Source of the DNA: a virus
Length of the DNA stretch: 27,718 bases
Strand: one strand, 5' to 3'
Virus record (IMG/VR): IMGVR_UViG_3300018080_000502
Coordinates: 1 to 27,718 of that record
The number at the start of each line of letters is the position of its first letter. Position 1 is the first letter of the stretch. The translations under genes were made by a program, and so were the position numbers. Under the pieces are notes generated by a model. It saw nothing but the letters and a program-made list of their open reading frames with translations, did not search any database and had not been told where the DNA came from. This document shows positions 8,229 through 26,828 of the stretch, in pieces.

Positions 8229-8260
8229 TAATAATATACGTATATTATTAATTGATCAAT
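8229..8260. promoter_or_regulatory. Two adjacent perfect palindromes before the HNH gene
   Basis: A 22-nt perfect palindrome centred on ATACGTAT (8229-8250) is followed immediately by a 10-nt one, ATTGATCAAT (8251-8260). They sit between the fibre stop (8184) and the ribosome site of the homing gene (AACGAAAGGA, 8261-8270). They could form an AU-rich hairpin in the mRNA leader or be protein-binding sites. No T-tract marks them as a terminator. Confidence 0.45.
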
Positions 8261-8278
8261 AACGAAAGGATGTTGCAT

Positions 8279-8989
8279 ATGGCAACAAAGATAAGTAGAA
8301 GGCCTATTAGATGGGCAACGGCAACAAAAGAAGAAAAACTTGCGCGTATGAAGGAGTTGCTATATAAAAGAGTTGTAAAAAAAAGAAATGGCTGTTGGGA
8401 TTTTATAGGATACATAAATAAATGGGGATACGGAGAAATACATATCGGTGGAAAGGTAAATGCATCTCATCATAACGCGCATAGGATATCATATATAGTT
8501 CATAAGGGAGAAATTCCTGATGGATTCTTTGTTTGTCATTCCTGTGACAACAGGGTCTGCTGTAATCCGGAGCATCTTTTTCTTGGGACGCCTAAAGAAA
8601 ATATGGATGACATGTACCAGAAGGGAAGGAATACTCATCTTAAAGGTGAAGCATGTTCATGGGCAACTCTAAAAAATGAAGATGTATTAAAAATGCTTAA
8701 ATTATTTGAGAAAGGTTTTAACGCGTCCCAAGTTGCTAAAAAGTTTAATATAAGCCGAGCTCACGCTCGAGATATAAAGCTAGGTAAAAGGTGGGGTCAT
8801 ATTGGTGATCGATCAAAAATAGAAAAAGTTAAGCCATTTAAAAAAATTATGACAGAGTCTATCGTTAAGGAAATAAAAGAAAAGTTTCGAAATGGTGTAC
8901 GAATTTGCGATATCTGTAAAGAATATGGCTTTTCTAGGTCAACAGTCGACGATATAAAAAAAGAAAGAACCTGGCGTCACGTTAAATAA
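8279..8989 (+). CDS. HNH homing endonuclease with two C-terminal DNA-binding modules
   Basis: A 236-aa protein. I chose ATG 8279 (MATKISRR) because AAAGGA lies eight bases upstream; the ATG at 8270 overlaps that site. Residues about 37-115 form an HNH_3-type nuclease domain: NGCWDFIGY, then AHRISYIVHKGEIPDG with H68, the CHSC cluster around 86-89, CCNPEHLFLGTPKENM with N96 and H99. Two helix-turn-helix modules follow, one around LKLFEKGFNASQVAKKF and one around RNGVRICDICKEYGFS, of the kind that position homing enzymes on their target. It sits alone between two tail genes, as free-standing phage homing endonuclease genes do. The C-terminal module resembles that of the protein at 26262. Confidence 0.85.
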   Translation: MATKISRRPIRWATATKEEKLARMKELLYKRVVKKRNGCWDFIGYINKWGYGEIHIGGKVNASHHNAHRISYIVHKGEIPDGFFVCHSCDNRVCCNPEHLFLGTPKENMDDMYQKGRNTHLKGEACSWATLKNEDVLKMLKLFEKGFNASQVAKKFNISRAHARDIKLGKRWGHIGDRSKIEKVKPFKKIMTESIVKEIKEKFRNGVRICDICKEYGFSRSTVDDIKKERTWRHVK

Positions 8990-13330: not shown

Positions 13331-13945
13331 ATGAAAACATGTAAAGATTGTAAAACTGAAAAGCCGTATAGTAGTTTTTATACATATGGCGGCGGCAGAT
13401 GGTATAGAGGAAGATGTAAAAAGTGTCATAATTTGAAATTTAGACCACCAAAGGGCATAAATACCGGATGTTTTAAAAAGGGAAATACTCCTTGGAATAA
13501 AGGCCTCAGAAACACTGAATTTAAGCCTACAAATGGGTTTACTAAGGGCCACACTAGAACAAAAGGCATAAAGAAAAGTGCTGAGCACGTAAGAAAAATG
13601 AAGGCAACAAAATATGCGCGATCAATAAGCAGGCATTGCAAAAAACACAGGGACTGGAAGCATGCGGTATGGGAAAGAGATGATTATAAATGTGTAAAAT
13701 GTGGATCAATAGAAAAAATATGTGCGCACCATATAAAACCATGGAAGGAGTACCCGGAGTTGAGATTTGATATAGATAATGGGCTAACGTTATGTTGTTC
13801 TTGTCATACAATATTACACTGTAAAGGACGTATGCTTACAGATGAACATCGCAAGAAGCTTAGTGATGCGCATAAAGGGAAAAAGCTTTCAATGGAACAT
13901 CGCAAGAACATTAGTAAGTCGCTTCGTGCTTTTTATGGGAGTTAA
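13331..13945 (+). CDS. HNH homing endonuclease with NUMOD3-type repeats
   Basis: A 204-aa protein with Shine-Dalgarno GAAAGGA, seven bases before ATG. N-terminal zinc ribbon: C4, C7, C29, C32. A basic G/K-rich linker (NTPWNKGLR, FTKGHTRTKG) is NUMOD3-like. The HNH nuclease spans about 108-163: HAVWERDDYKCVKCGS (C121, C124), AHHIKPW (H133, H134), DNGLTLCCSCH (N150, C158, H159), H163. The C-terminus holds two NUMOD3-type modules: LTDEHRKKLSDAHKGKKLS and MEHRKNISKSLRAF. All metal-binding and catalytic positions expected of HNH proteins are present, so it looks active. It is inserted between the large fibre and the C1q-like gene; the latter's ribosome site lies in its last codons. Confidence 0.88.
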   Translation: MKTCKDCKTEKPYSSFYTYGGGRWYRGRCKKCHNLKFRPPKGINTGCFKKGNTPWNKGLRNTEFKPTNGFTKGHTRTKGIKKSAEHVRKMKATKYARSISRHCKKHRDWKHAVWERDDYKCVKCGSIEKICAHHIKPWKEYPELRFDIDNGLTLCCSCHTILHCKGRMLTDEHRKKLSDAHKGKKLSMEHRKNISKSLRAFYGS

Positions 13946-22263: not shown

Positions 22264-22499
22264 CTGTTGAATTATACCTGCTCATTTCAGCCGTTTTGCT
22301 GCTTATAGCAAATGGAGTCATAACCATCATGACACACAAGAGCTATGAGAAAGACCTAGACGAGCTAGACCACAGAATCAACTCGGAGTTTGAAAATATA
22401 TACGCAAATTTGCATGATACAGCGCTTGAAGTCGACAGGCTTAAGTCAAACAGTATACATAAGCGCAAACCCGGTCGACCTAGAAAGGACCAGAAGTGA
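22260..22499 (+). CDS. Membrane-anchored coiled coil with AT-hook-like tail
   Basis: A 79-aa protein. Residues 3-25 are a membrane segment (VELYLLISAVLLLIANGVIT), 30-63 a coiled coil (YEKDLDELDHRINSEFENIY), and the end is KRKPGRPRKDQK, which matches the AT-hook core (basic-GRP-basic). It could be an i-spanin- or holin-like lysis protein with a basic tail, or a protein that tethers DNA to the membrane. It overlaps both neighbours by four bases. Confidence 0.6.
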   Translation: MTVELYLLISAVLLLIANGVITIMTHKSYEKDLDELDHRINSEFENIYANLHDTALEVDRLKSNSIHKRKPGRPRKDQK

Positions 22500-22771
22500 G
22501 ATATTACTTACCATATATGGCAATCATTCTCCTCCTTCCCCTTTTTGGAATGGAAAGAGCCCCAGCTTGGGGAACGGAAGAATGGAGAAAGGCACGTGCT
22601 GAAGTAGAAGATACTGTTCGAACAGTAGAGCGTAGAGAGCGAGAAAAAGAACGCAAGAGAAGAGCAGCGGAGCGTATACTAAGAGAGCGAGTTGCACTAG
22701 CGATGCAGATTAAAGAGTCGAGAAGGTCCTATGACAGATCTAACTCCAGAGATTCACGTCCATCTGAATAA
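22496..22771 (+). CDS. Small exported or membrane-anchored basic helical protein, GTG start
   Basis: A 91-aa protein starting at GTG within GTGA of the previous stop, with AAAGGA upstream. The first 25 residues look like a signal or anchor sequence (RYYLPYMAIILLLPLFGMER). The rest is a long Arg/Glu-rich helix (ERREREKERKRRAAERILRE). No lipobox cysteine is present, so it is not a standard o-spanin. The last 41 bases overlap the start of the large terminase gene. The function is unknown; a lysis-related pair with the preceding membrane protein is one possibility. Confidence 0.55.
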   Translation: MRYYLPYMAIILLLPLFGMERAPAWGTEEWRKARAEVEDTVRTVERREREKERKRRAAERILRERVALAMQIKESRRSYDRSNSRDSRPSE

Positions 22772-24101
22772 GTTTAAACCGAGAGCCTATCAAGAATGTA
22801 TAGCTGACGCCATATTCAACCATGGATTCAAAAAGATTATGGCAATCTGGCCTCGGAGAGCAGGGAAAGATTTGACGGCATGGAATATATGCATACAGGC
22901 TATGCTTCGCGATATCATGACCATATATTATGTATTTCCCACTTACTCATCCGGACGCCGAATTCTTTGGGATGCGATTAACAATGATGGCTATCGTATC
23001 TTAGATTATTTGCCAAAAGAACTGATTGAATCTAAGAATGAGCAAATGATGCGAATTAAACTAAAAAATGGTTCTGTCTTTCAGATCGTTGGATCAGATA
23101 ATTATGATAATGCACTAGTAGGTACTAACCCCAAGGGCATAGTTTTCTCTGAGTTTGCAATAAGTAATCCAATGGCTTATTCATTTGTGAGGCCTATCTT
23201 GTCCGCAAACGGTGGGTGGGCACTCATTGTGAGTACTCCACGTGGGCGCAACTTTATGTATGAAATGTATCAAATAGCATTGCACAACCCTAAATCATGG
23301 TTTGTTTCAAAACTTACGGTCGATGATACTTGCCATATACCAATCGAGGAAATAGAAAGAGAGCGAGCGGAAGGGGAGATGTCTGAAGATTTGCAGCTAC
23401 AGGAATATTGGACATCGTTCGAAATGGGTATAGAGGGTGCATATTATACAAAATATATGGACAAGGCGCGCTTAGATGGAAGGATTGGCGATGTTCCGTG
23501 GGAGCCAAATTTTAAAGTACATACGGCTTTTGATTTAGGTGTTTCTGACTCCACCGCTATCATATTTTTTCAAATTGTTGGGACAGCTGTTCGCGTTATA
23601 GATAGCTATGAAAATTCAAAGGTTGGATTAGAGCACTACGTTAACGTATTAAAAAATAAGCCGTACACATATGGCAAGCATATTGCTCCCCATGATATCA
23701 AGGTACAGGAGCTTGGATCAGGGATTACTCGTCTAGCAAAGGCCAGGGAGCTGGGAATTAACTTTACTGTGGCCGAAAAAGCACTTATACTTGATGGCAT
23801 AGAAGCTGTTAGGTCGTCTTTGGGTAAAATGTGGTTCGATAAAAATAACTGCGCGCAGCTTATTAAGGCAATAGAAAACTATCGGCAGGAGTTTGACCAC
23901 AAAAAGAAAGTGTATAAACCGAAGCCACTCCACAACTGGGCGTCTCACTACTGTGACGCTCTCAGGTACCTGGCAATATCTTTGCCCAAAATGAGCGACC
24001 ACCTAAGGCCTGAAGATATAGAGCGAAACTATAGAGAGGCAATGTATGGAAAAGAGGCATTCCCAAACTTTTTCGAAGACAGACATCAAAAGTTTTATTA
24101 G
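22731..24101 (+). CDS. terL: Terminase large subunit
   Basis: A 456-aa DNA-packaging motor. ATPase part: Walker A WPRRAGKD at 40-47, Walker B GIVFSEF at 136-142 (S in place of the usual D, followed by the catalytic E141, a variant common in this group), coupling motif STPRG at 168-172. RNase-H-like nuclease part: FDLGVSDSTAI (D268, D273), then HYCDALRYL near 430 with the last metal-binding aspartate. All key motifs are intact and the length is typical of short-tailed phages. GAAGG lies upstream of the ATG. It translocates DNA into the prohead through the portal, whose gene lies 2.85 kb downstream beyond accessory insertions. The C-terminus overlaps a homing-type gene by 56 bases. Confidence 0.95.
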   Translation: MTDLTPEIHVHLNKFKPRAYQECIADAIFNHGFKKIMAIWPRRAGKDLTAWNICIQAMLRDIMTIYYVFPTYSSGRRILWDAINNDGYRILDYLPKELIESKNEQMMRIKLKNGSVFQIVGSDNYDNALVGTNPKGIVFSEFAISNPMAYSFVRPILSANGGWALIVSTPRGRNFMYEMYQIALHNPKSWFVSKLTVDDTCHIPIEEIERERAEGEMSEDLQLQEYWTSFEMGIEGAYYTKYMDKARLDGRIGDVPWEPNFKVHTAFDLGVSDSTAIIFFQIVGTAVRVIDSYENSKVGLEHYVNVLKNKPYTYGKHIAPHDIKVQELGSGITRLAKARELGINFTVAEKALILDGIEAVRSSLGKMWFDKNNCAQLIKAIENYRQEFDHKKKVYKPKPLHNWASHYCDALRYLAISLPKMSDHLRPEDIERNYREAMYGKEAFPNFFEDRHQKFY

Positions 24102-24774
24102 AAAGAAGATTAATTCTTGGACAATTGTTGCGGAGGCAGGCTGGAACAATAGTGGTAGGCGATTATGGTTGGTTCGTTGTGATTGTGGAACAGAGACCAA
24201 AAAGAGGGCTGATCAAATAAAGCTGTCCCGTGGTTGTGTTGAGTGTGGCAAAAAACGGGTGACGAAGTATAGCTATAGTCCACTAGAATGCATTCACAAA
24301 TGGACGGTACTGCATAAAACAGGTCTATCCGGAAACATATATCGTTGCCGCTGTAAATGCGGCCGAGAGTCTAATGTTGCTGCGAAGGACTTGAGTTCGG
24401 GGGCTTCGAAGGGATGTAGGTCGTGCCACACAGCCTCGAGAAATAAAACTCATGGATTTTCAAGAACAAAAATATATCGCGTTTGGGCTGGAATTAAGTC
24501 TAGATGCTATAACAAGAACAACCAAGATTATAGGCGTTACGGAGGACGGGGAATAAAGGTGAGCCAACGATGGTTAGATTTTAAAAACTTTTTGGCTGAT
24601 ATGGGGGAGCCTGCTCCTGGAATGACTATTGATCGAATCGATTCGAACGGAGATTACTGTAAAAAAAACTGCAGATGGATTAGTAGGTCAGACAATGCAA
24701 AAAGGATGCATTCAGAATATATTCATATAAGTAAGTTATGCGAGTCTTGCAAGAAAAAGAATACTAGTCCGTGA
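24046..24774 (+). CDS. Zinc-ribbon protein with HNH/AP2-like homing domain
   Basis: A 242-aa protein overlapping the terminase end by 56 bases (AGAGAGG upstream of its ATG). Two zinc ribbons come first: RCDCGTETKKRADQIKLSRG with CVECG, then CRCKCGRESNVAAKDLSSGA with CRSC. From about 135 a domain widely found in phage homing-type genes follows: FSRTKIYRVWAGIKSRCYNK, then YRRYGGRGIKVSQRWLDFKN, FLADMGEPAPGMTIDRID and NGDYCKKNCRWI. The D-R-I-D-N/S and N-C-R-W elements are its hallmark. It probably cuts or binds DNA; the nuclease class is not certain. It resembles the 26262 protein in its ribbons. Confidence 0.7.
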   Translation: MEKRHSQTFSKTDIKSFIRKKINSWTIVAEAGWNNSGRRLWLVRCDCGTETKKRADQIKLSRGCVECGKKRVTKYSYSPLECIHKWTVLHKTGLSGNIYRCRCKCGRESNVAAKDLSSGASKGCRSCHTASRNKTHGFSRTKIYRVWAGIKSRCYNKNNQDYRRYGGRGIKVSQRWLDFKNFLADMGEPAPGMTIDRIDSNGDYCKKNCRWISRSDNAKRMHSEYIHISKLCESCKKKNTSP

Positions 24775-24810
24775 CGTTTTGTCACAACCTGTGATATTTT
24801 GTCACACCTT
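24771..24810. repeat. Tandem 20-bp repeats, each a dyad
   Basis: GTGACGTTTTGTCACAACCT is followed directly by GTGATATTTTGTCACACCTT: 16 of 20 bases agree. The first is a perfect dyad (GTGAC/GTCAC), the second has one mismatch. Spacing is two helical turns, as for cooperative operators. They overlap the stop codon of the gene at 24046 and lie between convergent genes. Confidence 0.55.
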
Positions 24811-24835: not shown

Positions 24836-24861
24836 TAACAAGGACGCCCCGAAGGACGCCC
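24836..24861 (-). terminator. Intrinsic terminator with UUCG tetraloop
   Basis: On the minus strand GGGCGTCC, TTCG, GGGCGTCC pairs along all eight positions (two G-U pairs), giving a C(UUCG)G tetraloop hairpin, followed by TTGTTAAT. It lies 16 bases beyond the stop of the secreted-protein gene 24877-25392. On the plus strand the same bases pair poorly, so it acts leftward. Confidence 0.65.
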
Positions 24862-24876
24862 TGAAACAAGCTTGAC

Positions 24877-25392
24877 TTAAATTTCACTTCTTGTTTTTAT
24901 AATCTCTCTACAGTGTCTACGATATCTAGCGCGTCCCAATGCTGGAGAAAGATTCTTTTTGTTTCTGCCTGGATAATCAGACCTTGCAGATCTAAATGCT
25001 ATAACATGTGCAGCAACCTGGGCAACATTCTTTTCTGTTTCAGTTGCTACTAGCGCTGAAGCCTCAGCCAGTCGACCACGTTCTGCGCTAGCCTTAAATG
25101 CGCGTAAGTTATCTCTTGCTTCTGCAGAAAGATTGCGGTTGCTCCCTTTTCCGCTGTTCGGATCATCCGGCGGCGTTGGTGCAGCCATTAAAGATCCGAC
25201 CAAGCTGCACGCAGCGCTTCCGATAGCCCACACAGCTTTAAATGGAAGTGCTATTACTGTTCCAATTAATTCTCCCATTGCCTCTCCCGCTTGTGTAGCA
25301 GAAGATGTTTGCTCCTCTTGTTGCTGCATCATGGCATTTGCCTGTATCGATATCAACAGGCTTAAGCTAATAATTGAAAATAATCGTTTCAT
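24877..25392 (-). CDS. Secreted protein of unknown function
   Basis: A 171-aa protein with Shine-Dalgarno AAAGGA and a clear signal peptide (MKRLFSIISLSLLISIQANA, cleaved after ANA). The mature part has a Q/E-rich start, a hydrophobic stretch (GELIGTVIALPFKAVWAIGS, then AACSLVGSLMAAPTPP) that could insert into a membrane, an alanine-rich helix and a basic tail (RARYRRHCREIIKTRSEI). No family is recognised. It is the second gene of a leftward unit with its own promoter and terminator, in a place where phages carry cargo genes. Possible roles include altering the host envelope, superinfection exclusion or host interaction. Confidence 0.7.
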   Translation of the reverse strand: MKRLFSIISLSLLISIQANAMMQQQEEQTSSATQAGEAMGELIGTVIALPFKAVWAIGSAACSLVGSLMAAPTPPDDPNSGKGSNRNLSAEARDNLRAFKASAERGRLAEASALVATETEKNVAQVAAHVIAFRSARSDYPGRNKKNLSPALGRARYRRHCREIIKTRSEI

Positions 25393-25443
25393 CGATTATC
25401 CTTTCGTTTAAATATGGTTAAAAAAACACTTACTTGCTTTTCT

Positions 25444-25469
25444 CGGGGGCTATATAGCCCCCGTTTTTT
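25444..25469 (+). terminator. 20-nt perfect palindrome with T-tract on the plus strand
   Basis: CGGGGGCTATATAGCCCCCG is self-complementary throughout and followed by six T on the plus strand. It starts four bases beyond the stop of the leftward gene 25468-25836. It is best viewed as a terminator for plus-strand read-through entering the cassette; leftward it could cause pausing or partial termination between the two secreted-protein genes. Confidence 0.65.
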
Positions 25470-25836
25470 AAACTCCGTGACAATATTGGCCACATTGTTG
25501 ACAATATCCGTCGCACCCAGCACAATGCCTATCACACTGTCTGTGTACGCCTCGTACTTCATTATAATGATGCCTGTGTAGATATCCGTGCCTGTATAGT
25601 ACCTGCGCATATCTAACAGCCCGGCCATATTCAATTGACCTAAGATAGTCAACCAGCGCTCGAGCCATTCTTCCAAATGCTACACCAGCGTCTGTTAAAG
25701 CTTTGCAAAGCTGATAAACAACCTCGCCTTCTGTAGATCTACGTCTCAGCTCTGTTGGAGCGTTAACGCGAGCTTCCGCGGTAAATGCGCAAAAAGCTGC
25801 TCCCAGCATGAACGCATGCATTAGTTTGACGAACAT
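25468..25836 (-). CDS. Secreted protein with cysteine-heptad tail
   Basis: A 122-aa protein with a very strong Shine-Dalgarno (AAGGAGG) and a signal peptide (MFVKLMHAFMLGAAFCAFTA, cleaved near AEA). The mature part is helical and Arg-rich (LCKALTDAGVAFGRMARALV, then DYLRSIEYGRAVRYAQVLYR). The end is H/C-rich with cysteines spaced C-x3-C-x2 three times (CDRHCAGCDGYCQQCGQYC). A second open frame, 25389-25676, covers this end; it has only a TTG start without a ribosome site, but its stop overlaps the next ATG (ATGA). A frameshift joining the two cannot be excluded. First gene after the leftward promoter of the cassette; function unknown. Confidence 0.6.
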   Translation of the reverse strand: MFVKLMHAFMLGAAFCAFTAEARVNAPTELRRRSTEGEVVYQLCKALTDAGVAFGRMARALVDYLRSIEYGRAVRYAQVLYRHGYLHRHHYNEVRGVHRQCDRHCAGCDGYCQQCGQYCHGV

Positions 25837-25863
25837 AGTGTTCCTCCTTGGTTATGTGTGTTT

Positions 25864-25898
25864 ATAAAAGAGGCGCCCAAAGGGGACGAGCGCACCTC
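25864..25898 (-). terminator. Attenuator-like hairpin in the leader of the secreted-protein unit
   Basis: On the minus strand GAGGTGC and GCGCCTC form a 7-bp stem (one G-U), followed by TTTTAT. It lies between the promoter (25918-25946) and the ribosome site near 25847, so transcripts would have to pass it before reaching the gene. It could be a conditional attenuator or an insulating terminator. Confidence 0.5.
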
Positions 25899-25917
25899 AA
25901 AACCATTATACGCTCTT

Positions 25918-25946
25918 ATCTTAATATATATATTATATAGTGTCAA
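25918..25946 (-). promoter_or_regulatory. Leftward sigma-70 promoter of the secreted-protein unit
   Basis: TTGACA (25946-25941), 17-bp AT-rich spacer, TAAGAT (25923-25918) on the minus strand. A perfect TATAAT also occurs at 25910-25905 but without a -35. The -35 box faces that of the rightward promoter six bases away. Confidence 0.7.
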
Positions 25947-25952
25947 CTGGGT

Positions 25953-25980
25953 TTGACGTCAAAGATATATGTGGTATATT
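25953..25980 (+). promoter_or_regulatory. Rightward promoter and palindromic operator of the second RHH gene
   Basis: TTGACG (25953-25958), 16-bp spacer, TATATT (25975-25980). The -35 is embedded in the perfect palindrome TTGACGTCAA (25953-25962). Together with GTCAA at 25942-25946 this makes alternating half-sites GTCAA, TTGAC, GTCAA across both promoters, so one repressor could control both directions. Confidence 0.65.
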
Positions 25981-26014
25981 ATATATAATATTAGCAATTA
26001 ATAGAGGAAGATAT

Positions 26015-26230
26015 ATGGAAGAAAAAAAGCGTCCTGGACGTGCAAAAGATGATCCACCAAAAGCAAAGCTTACACATTATTTGCCAGTTGAGGTGAAAAA
26101 GAAATTTAATAAACTATATGCGATGCAAGTCTTAAGCGAAAGCAAAGAGAATCGATCTGACTTGGTTGTTCGGGCCATTAATATGTTGTACGATAGTGTG
26201 TTTGCTGAAAATCAACGAAAGGAAACATAA
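26015..26230 (+). CDS. 71-aa ribbon-helix-helix-type regulator
   Basis: I chose ATG 26015 (MEEKKRPGRAKDDPPKAKLT) because AGAGGAAG lies seven bases upstream; the longer frame from 25940 would begin upstream of the promoter. The core follows the ribbon-helix-helix pattern: basic arm, strand KAKLTHYLP, helix A VEVKKKFNKLYAMQVLSE, turn ENRS, helix B DLVVRAINMLYDSV. The insertion between the helices is longer than usual, so the match is good but not perfect. It is divergent from the two secreted-protein genes and separated from them by palindromic promoter DNA, as an autoregulating repressor would be. Confidence 0.65.
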   Translation: MEEKKRPGRAKDDPPKAKLTHYLPVEVKKKFNKLYAMQVLSESKENRSDLVVRAINMLYDSVFAENQRKET

Positions 26231-26235
26231 TTAAC

Positions 26236-26262
26236 CTTGTCTTGAAAGGCTAGCCATTCTAA
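26236..26262. repeat. Left direct repeat flanking the zinc-ribbon/HTH gene
   Basis: CTTGTCTTGAA, four variable bases, TAGCC, one variable base, TTCTAA. The same 27-base frame recurs at 26830-26856 with 22 of 27 bases equal. It ends on the first base of the start codon of the enclosed gene. Confidence 0.6.
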
Positions 26263-26828
26263 TGAAGAGGATTTTAAAAAAGGGTGACAAGATACATTGG
26301 TGGACTGTTTTAGGCGATGCGCCCGATCGTTACTATACGAGGAAAACAGGAAAGCTAGCAGGATATACTGAAGCACACCCTTTTTTTTATGTTGAATGTA
26401 GATGTGGCCATAGAAGAGAGATTTCCCAAGAGTGTCTTAAGCGTGCGGGTAAGCCATCCGGATCCACAAAGTGTATTGATTGCTCTAACAAGCTTAAAGG
26501 TCCTTCGCTAAGAAAACTTGATCTTAAAAAGCGATACGGCACTTGGAATGTTCTTTTTGATATCAAAATAGAAAAGAAAAAGACTCTTTGTTTGTGTGAA
26601 TGCGACTGTGGGTACAGAAGTTACATCGATACATATTTATTGAGAGTTGGGAGGTCAAAGGGGTGTAAGAAGTGTCAGCGTTTTAAAGTTGCCAAATATA
26701 GTCTCGAGACTGTTAACAAAATAAAAGCATTGCTAGCAGATAATATGAGAATTTGCGACGTATCTAAAAAATTAAACGTGCCTTACGCGACTGTTAAGAA
26801 TATAAAATATGGAAAGGCTTGGAAATAA
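26262..26828 (+). CDS. Zinc-ribbon/helix-turn-helix protein of homing-endonuclease type, without nuclease domain
   Basis: A 188-aa protein. Two zinc ribbons: CRCGHRREISQECLKRAG with CIDC, and CECDCGYRSYIDTYLLRVGR with CKKC. The C-terminal 45 residues are a helix-turn-helix (TVNKIKALLADNMRICDVSK, then KLNVPYATVKNIKYGKAW) close to the last module of the HNH protein at 8279. No HNH, GIY-YIG or other catalytic motif is seen, so it may be a DNA-binding remnant of a homing gene or a regulator. The ribosome site is poor (GAAAGG at 13 bases). Flanking 27-base direct repeats suggest it arrived as a unit. Confidence 0.7.
   Translation: MKRILKKGDKIHWWTVLGDAPDRYYTRKTGKLAGYTEAHPFFYVECRCGHRREISQECLKRAGKPSGSTKCIDCSNKLKGPSLRKLDLKKRYGTWNVLFDIKIEKKKTLCLCECDCGYRSYIDTYLLRVGRSKGCKKCQRFKVAKYSLETVNKIKALLADNMRICDVSKKLNVPYATVKNIKYGKAWK

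Follow-up and report, generated by a model that had tools for sequence, protein, structure and literature searches.

The interval between the terminase and portal genes of the 27.7 kb virus record IMGVR_UViG_3300018080_000502 from IMG/VR (the whole stretch analysed, 27,718 nt, is referred to as the window) probably holds an autonomous accessory cassette of the moron or P22-immI kind, regulated by a ribbon-helix-helix (RHH) protein and encoding products that would act in the envelope. In agreement with the original prediction, the open reading frames and a signal-peptide rule place two genes for signal-peptide proteins (SP1 and SP2) on one side and a divergent RHH-like gene on the other, between terminase and portal. 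The features of the region are as follows.

22731–24101: TerL (terminase), the left-hand core neighbour of the cassette.
24046–24774, plus strand: HNH endonuclease gene (phrog_374, E 4.5e-53), on the terminase side of the cassette.
About 24839–24863, minus strand: terminator-like hairpin 3' of SP1 (z −2.0).
24877–25392, minus strand: SP1, 171 aa, second gene of the leftward unit (open reading frame, signal-peptide rule, homologues in L011 and L015).
25444–25463, plus strand: strong hairpin with a plus-strand T run, between SP2 and SP1 (z −3.7).
25468–25836, minus strand: SP2, 122 aa, first gene of the leftward unit (open reading frame, Shine-Dalgarno sequence, signal-peptide rule).
25946–25918, minus strand: leftward sigma-70-like promoter, TTGACA-17-TAAGAT (consensus match 10/12).
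25942–25962, no strand assigned: back-to-back −35 boxes, GTCAA-N6-TTGAC, plus a window-specific GTCAA; candidate regulator site.
25953–25980, plus strand: rightward sigma-70-like promoter, TTGACG-16-TATATT, with extended −10 (consensus match).
26015–26230, plus strand: RHH-like regulator gene, 71 aa, divergent from SP2 (family alignment, AF2 model, weak profile matches).
26262–26828, plus strand: HNH-related zinc-cluster protein (phrog_374, E 1.1e-5), on the portal side of the cassette.
From 26951: P22-type portal (Pfam P22_portal, E 2e-24).

The SP2 gene starts with ATG and is preceded by a strong Shine-Dalgarno sequence (AAGGAGGAACACTATG), and plausible ribosome-binding sites are present for the SP1 gene (AAAGGATAATCGATG) and the RHH-like gene (GAGGAAGATATATG). 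The HNH endonuclease gene overlaps the end of TerL (24101), and immediately 3' of its stop codon GTGAYRTTTTGTCAC occurs twice in tandem (24771–24805); GTGAC-N4-TGTCAC words resembling these repeats are present in several relatives. Altogether, the window contains four HNH or HNH-related genes (8252–8989, 13331–13945, 24046–24774 and 26262–26828), two of which border the cassette. A short signal-peptide protein is also encoded just 5' of the terminase, both in the window (22496–22771) and in two relatives (L002 7856–8071, L015 1940–2146).

Signal peptides were called by a simple home-made, heuristic rule, which is passed by SP1, SP2 and just one other of the 35 genes in the window, and by ∼2% of shuffled sequences. 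Both proteins have a predicted N-terminal signal peptide with an AxA-type site, as expected of Sec/SPase I substrates, and inspection by eye revealed no lipobox in either. Behind its signal peptide (MKR..ANA), SP1 has a hydrophobic helix and, after a PTPP linker, a basic end that is probably helical. SP2 contains a signal peptide (..TAEA) and a His/Cys-rich C-terminus with cysteines in heptad spacing; six of these (window 25477–25540) are spaced 4,3,4,3,4 (CDRHCAGCDGYCQQCGQYC) and perhaps serve in disulphide formation or metal binding following export. Homologues of SP1 with 34–35% identity are found in L011 and L015, and between these two the dN/dS ratio is ∼0.33, with changes biased to third positions. 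The homologues and this substitution pattern identify SP1 as a real gene, which, by the same measure, is under purifying selection.

That the exported proteins match no known family, as originally stated, holds for both: searches of Pfam, PHROGs, NCBIfam and PADLOC gave no significant match for SP1 or SP2, and the PADLOC defence models likewise match neither the RHH protein nor the proteins of L015. No homologue of SP2 was found. Searches of viral contigs with the single SP1 and SP2 sequences gave no homologue of either protein, and the SP1 alignment used as query recovers the L015 contig alone and nothing further. Two marginal matches to SP1 were obtained in 234 Chlamydiota genomes; the better of these was rejected, as the surrounding open frames encode unrelated enzymes and no SP1-like protein. 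The structure model of SP1 has a pLDDT of 51, which is too poor for a fold search.

The back-to-back promoters that had been proposed are borne out by the two divergent sites listed above. The leftward promoter of L011 and L015 reads TTGACA-16-TATAAT, matching the consensus at 12/12 positions, and the leftward unit ends in an intrinsic terminator. The position of the leftward promoter is conserved in L007, L011 and L015, and divergent promoter-like sites are also present in L007 and L002, such that four relatives (L002, L007, L011 and L015) show divergent sites with minus-strand genes behind them. The promoter scans consist of consensus matching only, and shuffled sequence yields about as many promoter-like sites in total as the window and L011/L015 do; the promoter argument therefore stands on the conserved location of the sites and not on how many there are.

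The palindromic half-sites described earlier, such as GTCAA, are present in this region, but they mostly represent the two promoter −35 boxes, and the extra GTCAA that completes TTGACGTCAA is confined to the window and absent from relatives. With one mismatch permitted, TTGACGTCAA is found once in the window versus 0.96 times expected, which is chance level. Since it is missing in relatives, TTGACGTCAA was rejected as a conserved operator. Comparison of the sequences shows conservation of the −35 pair, not of the TTGACGTCAA palindrome. GTCAA-N6/7-TTGAC occurs once each in the window, G011, G012 and L007, always just 5' of the RHH gene; this amounts to four occurrences versus 0.18 expected in 96 kb, two of them (G011 and G012) from close relatives and hence not independent. 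The segment 25942–25962 is a probable regulator site.

Of the terminators ascribed to the unit, the hairpin at about 24839–24863 has the leftward orientation and folds well in the leftward RNA only, although its U tract is weak. The strong hairpin at 25444–25463 has the opposite orientation; it would terminate rightward rather than leftward transcription and so block read-through from the terminase. This predicted terminator also bears on the main rival explanation, according to which the RHH gene heads the portal operon and its protein tunes the structural genes, with SP2–SP1 being passengers that share the regulated promoter region. Besides the upstream terminator that cuts terminase read-through, two observations fit this explanation: in the window, the stretch from the RHH promoter to the portal yielded neither a further rightward promoter-like site nor a terminator, and in L011 and L015 plus-strand genes run from RHH up to the portal. 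Because no other rightward promoter-like site precedes the portal, the RHH promoter may also serve the portal. However, L011 has an additional weak promoter-like site before the portal (again a consensus match only), and the portal can do without RHH, since many relatives have the portal close behind TerL and no RHH gene (85 bp gap in L005). A dedicated role of the RHH gene in the portal operon is thus regarded as doubtful, and an accessory cassette with its own regulator is preferred.

The 71-aa protein is very likely an RHH protein, as judged from its sequence pattern together with weak profile matches and a structure model. It can be aligned with proteins of eight relatives. The AF2 monomer model has a pLDDT of 83 (91–94 across the core) and consists of helices 25–41 and 47–70 with an extended stretch ahead, which is the layout expected of a ribbon-helix-helix monomer. 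The window protein has no Pfam match and a weak match to phrog_876, a phage repressor family (E 0.004), and the proteins of the relatives give weak RHH_1 matches (best E 0.011). A PDB sequence search using the RHH profile gave no match. No ribbon-helix-helix chain stands out when the model is searched with Foldseek and given a second look with VIA, the top VIA rows being mitoribosomal, with Z ∼6, under the trust level. The family alignment is too diverse to serve for a collection scan. When the close pair L011/L015 (RHH 97%) is left out, the RHH proteins are 26–59% identical where the portals are 84–90% identical, a difference that would fit fast divergence or exchange of the regulator.

Relatives were gathered by a terminase scan, which gave five loci, and a portal scan, which gave eighty. 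In the clade with portals 85–88% identical to that of the window, the RHH gene is kept in the terminase–portal interval; it is located there, or just before the portal on partial contigs, in L002, L007/L008, L009, L010, L011, L012 and L015. In L011 and L015 the SP1 homologues are on the minus strand, divergent from RHH, and L015 encodes one more signal-peptide protein. Other minus-strand genes sit at the place of SP1 and SP2 in L002 and L007; in L010 a signal-peptide gene is found on the plus strand. Terminase and portal had been taken to be normally adjacent, which is true of P22, where the two genes overlap by one base, but not of this phage group, in which the gap ranges from 85 to 4797 bp with a median of 1517 bp (64 intervals). 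By the home-made rule, a signal-peptide open reading frame is present in 16 of the 64 intervals; the window, L011 and L015 are the only ones with such a frame on the minus strand. Given the differing cargo and the variable gap over these intervals, SP1 and SP2 are accessory and the interval is a cargo slot; the comparison, which the original prediction had called for, rejects the two genes as core late genes.

Several other gene arrangements were observed in these phages. A phage-encoded GroES adjoins the terminase in L015 (3527–3817) and L011 (3622–3945), and more GroES-like open reading frames are found in L023, L031, L039, L040, L059, L063 and L067. Another late-region minus-strand mini-operon is located downstream of the portal in G006, G010 and G011 (e.g., L102 11690–13128); in it, short proteins with signal-peptide-like starts are encoded next to a RuvC-like resolvase. 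In L095, a portal relative from a genome of the Chlamydiota phylum, a minus-strand group directly before the portal (82–1361) encodes a signal-peptide-like protein, a small membrane protein and a kinase-like protein, functions that were judged by eye.

The HNH genes raise the alternative that the interval is a homing-endonuclease landing site, which the flanking HNH genes mobilise and in which the small genes are hitch-hikers without selected function. Such an origin agrees with the HNH or HNH-related genes at both borders, with HNH-like matches in the intervals of many relatives, and with intein-like insertions at approximately residue 44 of TerL in L003, L004, L006 and L011. It is nevertheless very improbable in view of the purifying selection on SP1, the conservation of the switch and promoters, and the presence of SP1 and RHH in L011 and L015, where the interval has no HNH match. 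The intein-like interruption of TerL in the four relatives is near the Walker A motif.

Among known systems, the nearest arrangement is, by analogy, the immI/sieA region of P22 (sieA, mnt, arc, ant). Like the cassette, it occupies a variable slot inside the late gene region, and its expression is largely separate from the late message (PMC8022706); it likewise combines divergently transcribed RHH-type regulators with a minus-strand gene for an envelope protein. In P22, genes 16 and 9 flank the slot, which holds mnt and sieA together with arc, the latter transcribed divergently from the other two, whereas the slot of the cassette is between TerL and portal. Unlike the cassette, the P22 slot has an antirepressor and two RHH genes, and P22 has an integrase, while no tyrosine or serine integrase was found in 19 records of the window group. 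Comparison of the cassette proteins with Arc, Mnt and SieA by hhalign, as single sequences, gave no significant match. The cassette looks, and probably works, like the P22 immI/sieA slot.

Morons are horizontally exchanged and are transcribed independently of the phage genes, properties that the cassette would share with these elements of temperate phages, its own transcription being predicted (PMC6469090). Its accessory genes are flanked by core genes and are absent or different in relatives; by consensus match it has its own promoter (10/12 in the window, 12/12 in L011 and L015), and good terminators of its own are present in L011 and L015, with the weaker U tract in the leftward hairpin of the window. 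Unlike morons, the cassette carries its own regulator, and while morons are defined in prophages, the cassette group shows no sign of integration. No tyrosine (PF00589) or serine (PF00239) integrase was found in the window record and 18 related records, which are mostly 33–43 kb and possibly incomplete, and an integrated prophage state is consequently without support. Of the lysogenic-conversion (moron) cassette that had been proposed, the accessory, by prediction separately transcribed cassette stands, but lysogenic conversion is unsupported, incomplete records or other modes of lysogeny, such as transposition or plasmid-like prophages, being possible. That the cassette is a lysogenic-conversion moron in the strict sense and is expressed from a prophage would be consistent with the autonomous predicted promoter and the orientation opposite to the late genes (PMC6469090), but is improbable given the missing integrases in these possibly incomplete records.

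With respect to the host, 10 of 234 Chlamydiota genomes contain portal relatives, versus 2 of 299 sampled Pseudomonadota genomes (Fisher p 0.007), a difference that is not seen for the strongest portal matches alone; several of the host-genome matches are on short contigs of draft genomes, where mis-binning is possible. Named phages searched with the N-terminus of the window portal gave no match.

In the preferred reading, an autonomous RHH-regulated cassette, the sigma-70-like promoter would drive SP2–SP1 leftward, against the late genes, to the terminator, and the back-to-back promoter would drive the RHH gene rightward. The RHH protein would bind the shared −35/spacer region and repress both promoters, and so also its own synthesis. 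In this way, synthesis of the exported proteins would not depend on the late transcript and might occur as a burst when the DNA enters, or steadily at a low level; SP1 and SP2 would be exported through the Sec pathway to act in the envelope. This reading is supported by the retention of RHH genes in the intervals of relatives, the divergent arrangement of RHH and the SP1 homologues in L011 and L015 and the conserved back-to-back promoters, by the restriction of the −35 pair to the region 5' of RHH and the selection on SP1, and by the exchange of cargo together with the P22 precedent, in which RHH genes and an exclusion gene share a variable late-region slot. Against it are the lack of an SP2 homologue, the poor leftward terminator of the window, the absence of an integrase from the 19 records, the weak profile matches and monomer model on which the RHH assignment rests, and the lack of a PADLOC match in favour of exclusion.

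Position and precedent tentatively suggest superinfection exclusion, or a similar protective surface change, as the role of SP1 and SP2. Phage-encoded envelope proteins for superinfection exclusion include P22 SieA (PMC10883804) and the Ltp lipoproteins (PMC3952083). Like these, SP1 and SP2 are small, predicted envelope proteins encoded by the phage apart from its virion genes, but no sequence relation was detected, and the lipobox is lacking by eye. As a long shot, a little-studied group of phages with P22-type portals and no detectable integrase may keep the RHH two-way switch as a plug-in slot for envelope-directed cargo that protects infected cells, with intracellular bacteria such as Chlamydiota as possible hosts; SP1 and SP2 would then be founders of new exclusion families.

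The cassette is an add-on of a type already known for phages, while its cargo families, SP1 and SP2, are new and orphan. In several uncultured phages, the combination of terminase, RHH gene and back-to-back promoter marks a place to seek new envelope-acting phage proteins. If SP1 and SP2 do not block superinfection, the interval would reflect ordinary accessory-gene exchange; if they do, it would constitute a regulated exclusion cassette in phages that apparently do not integrate.
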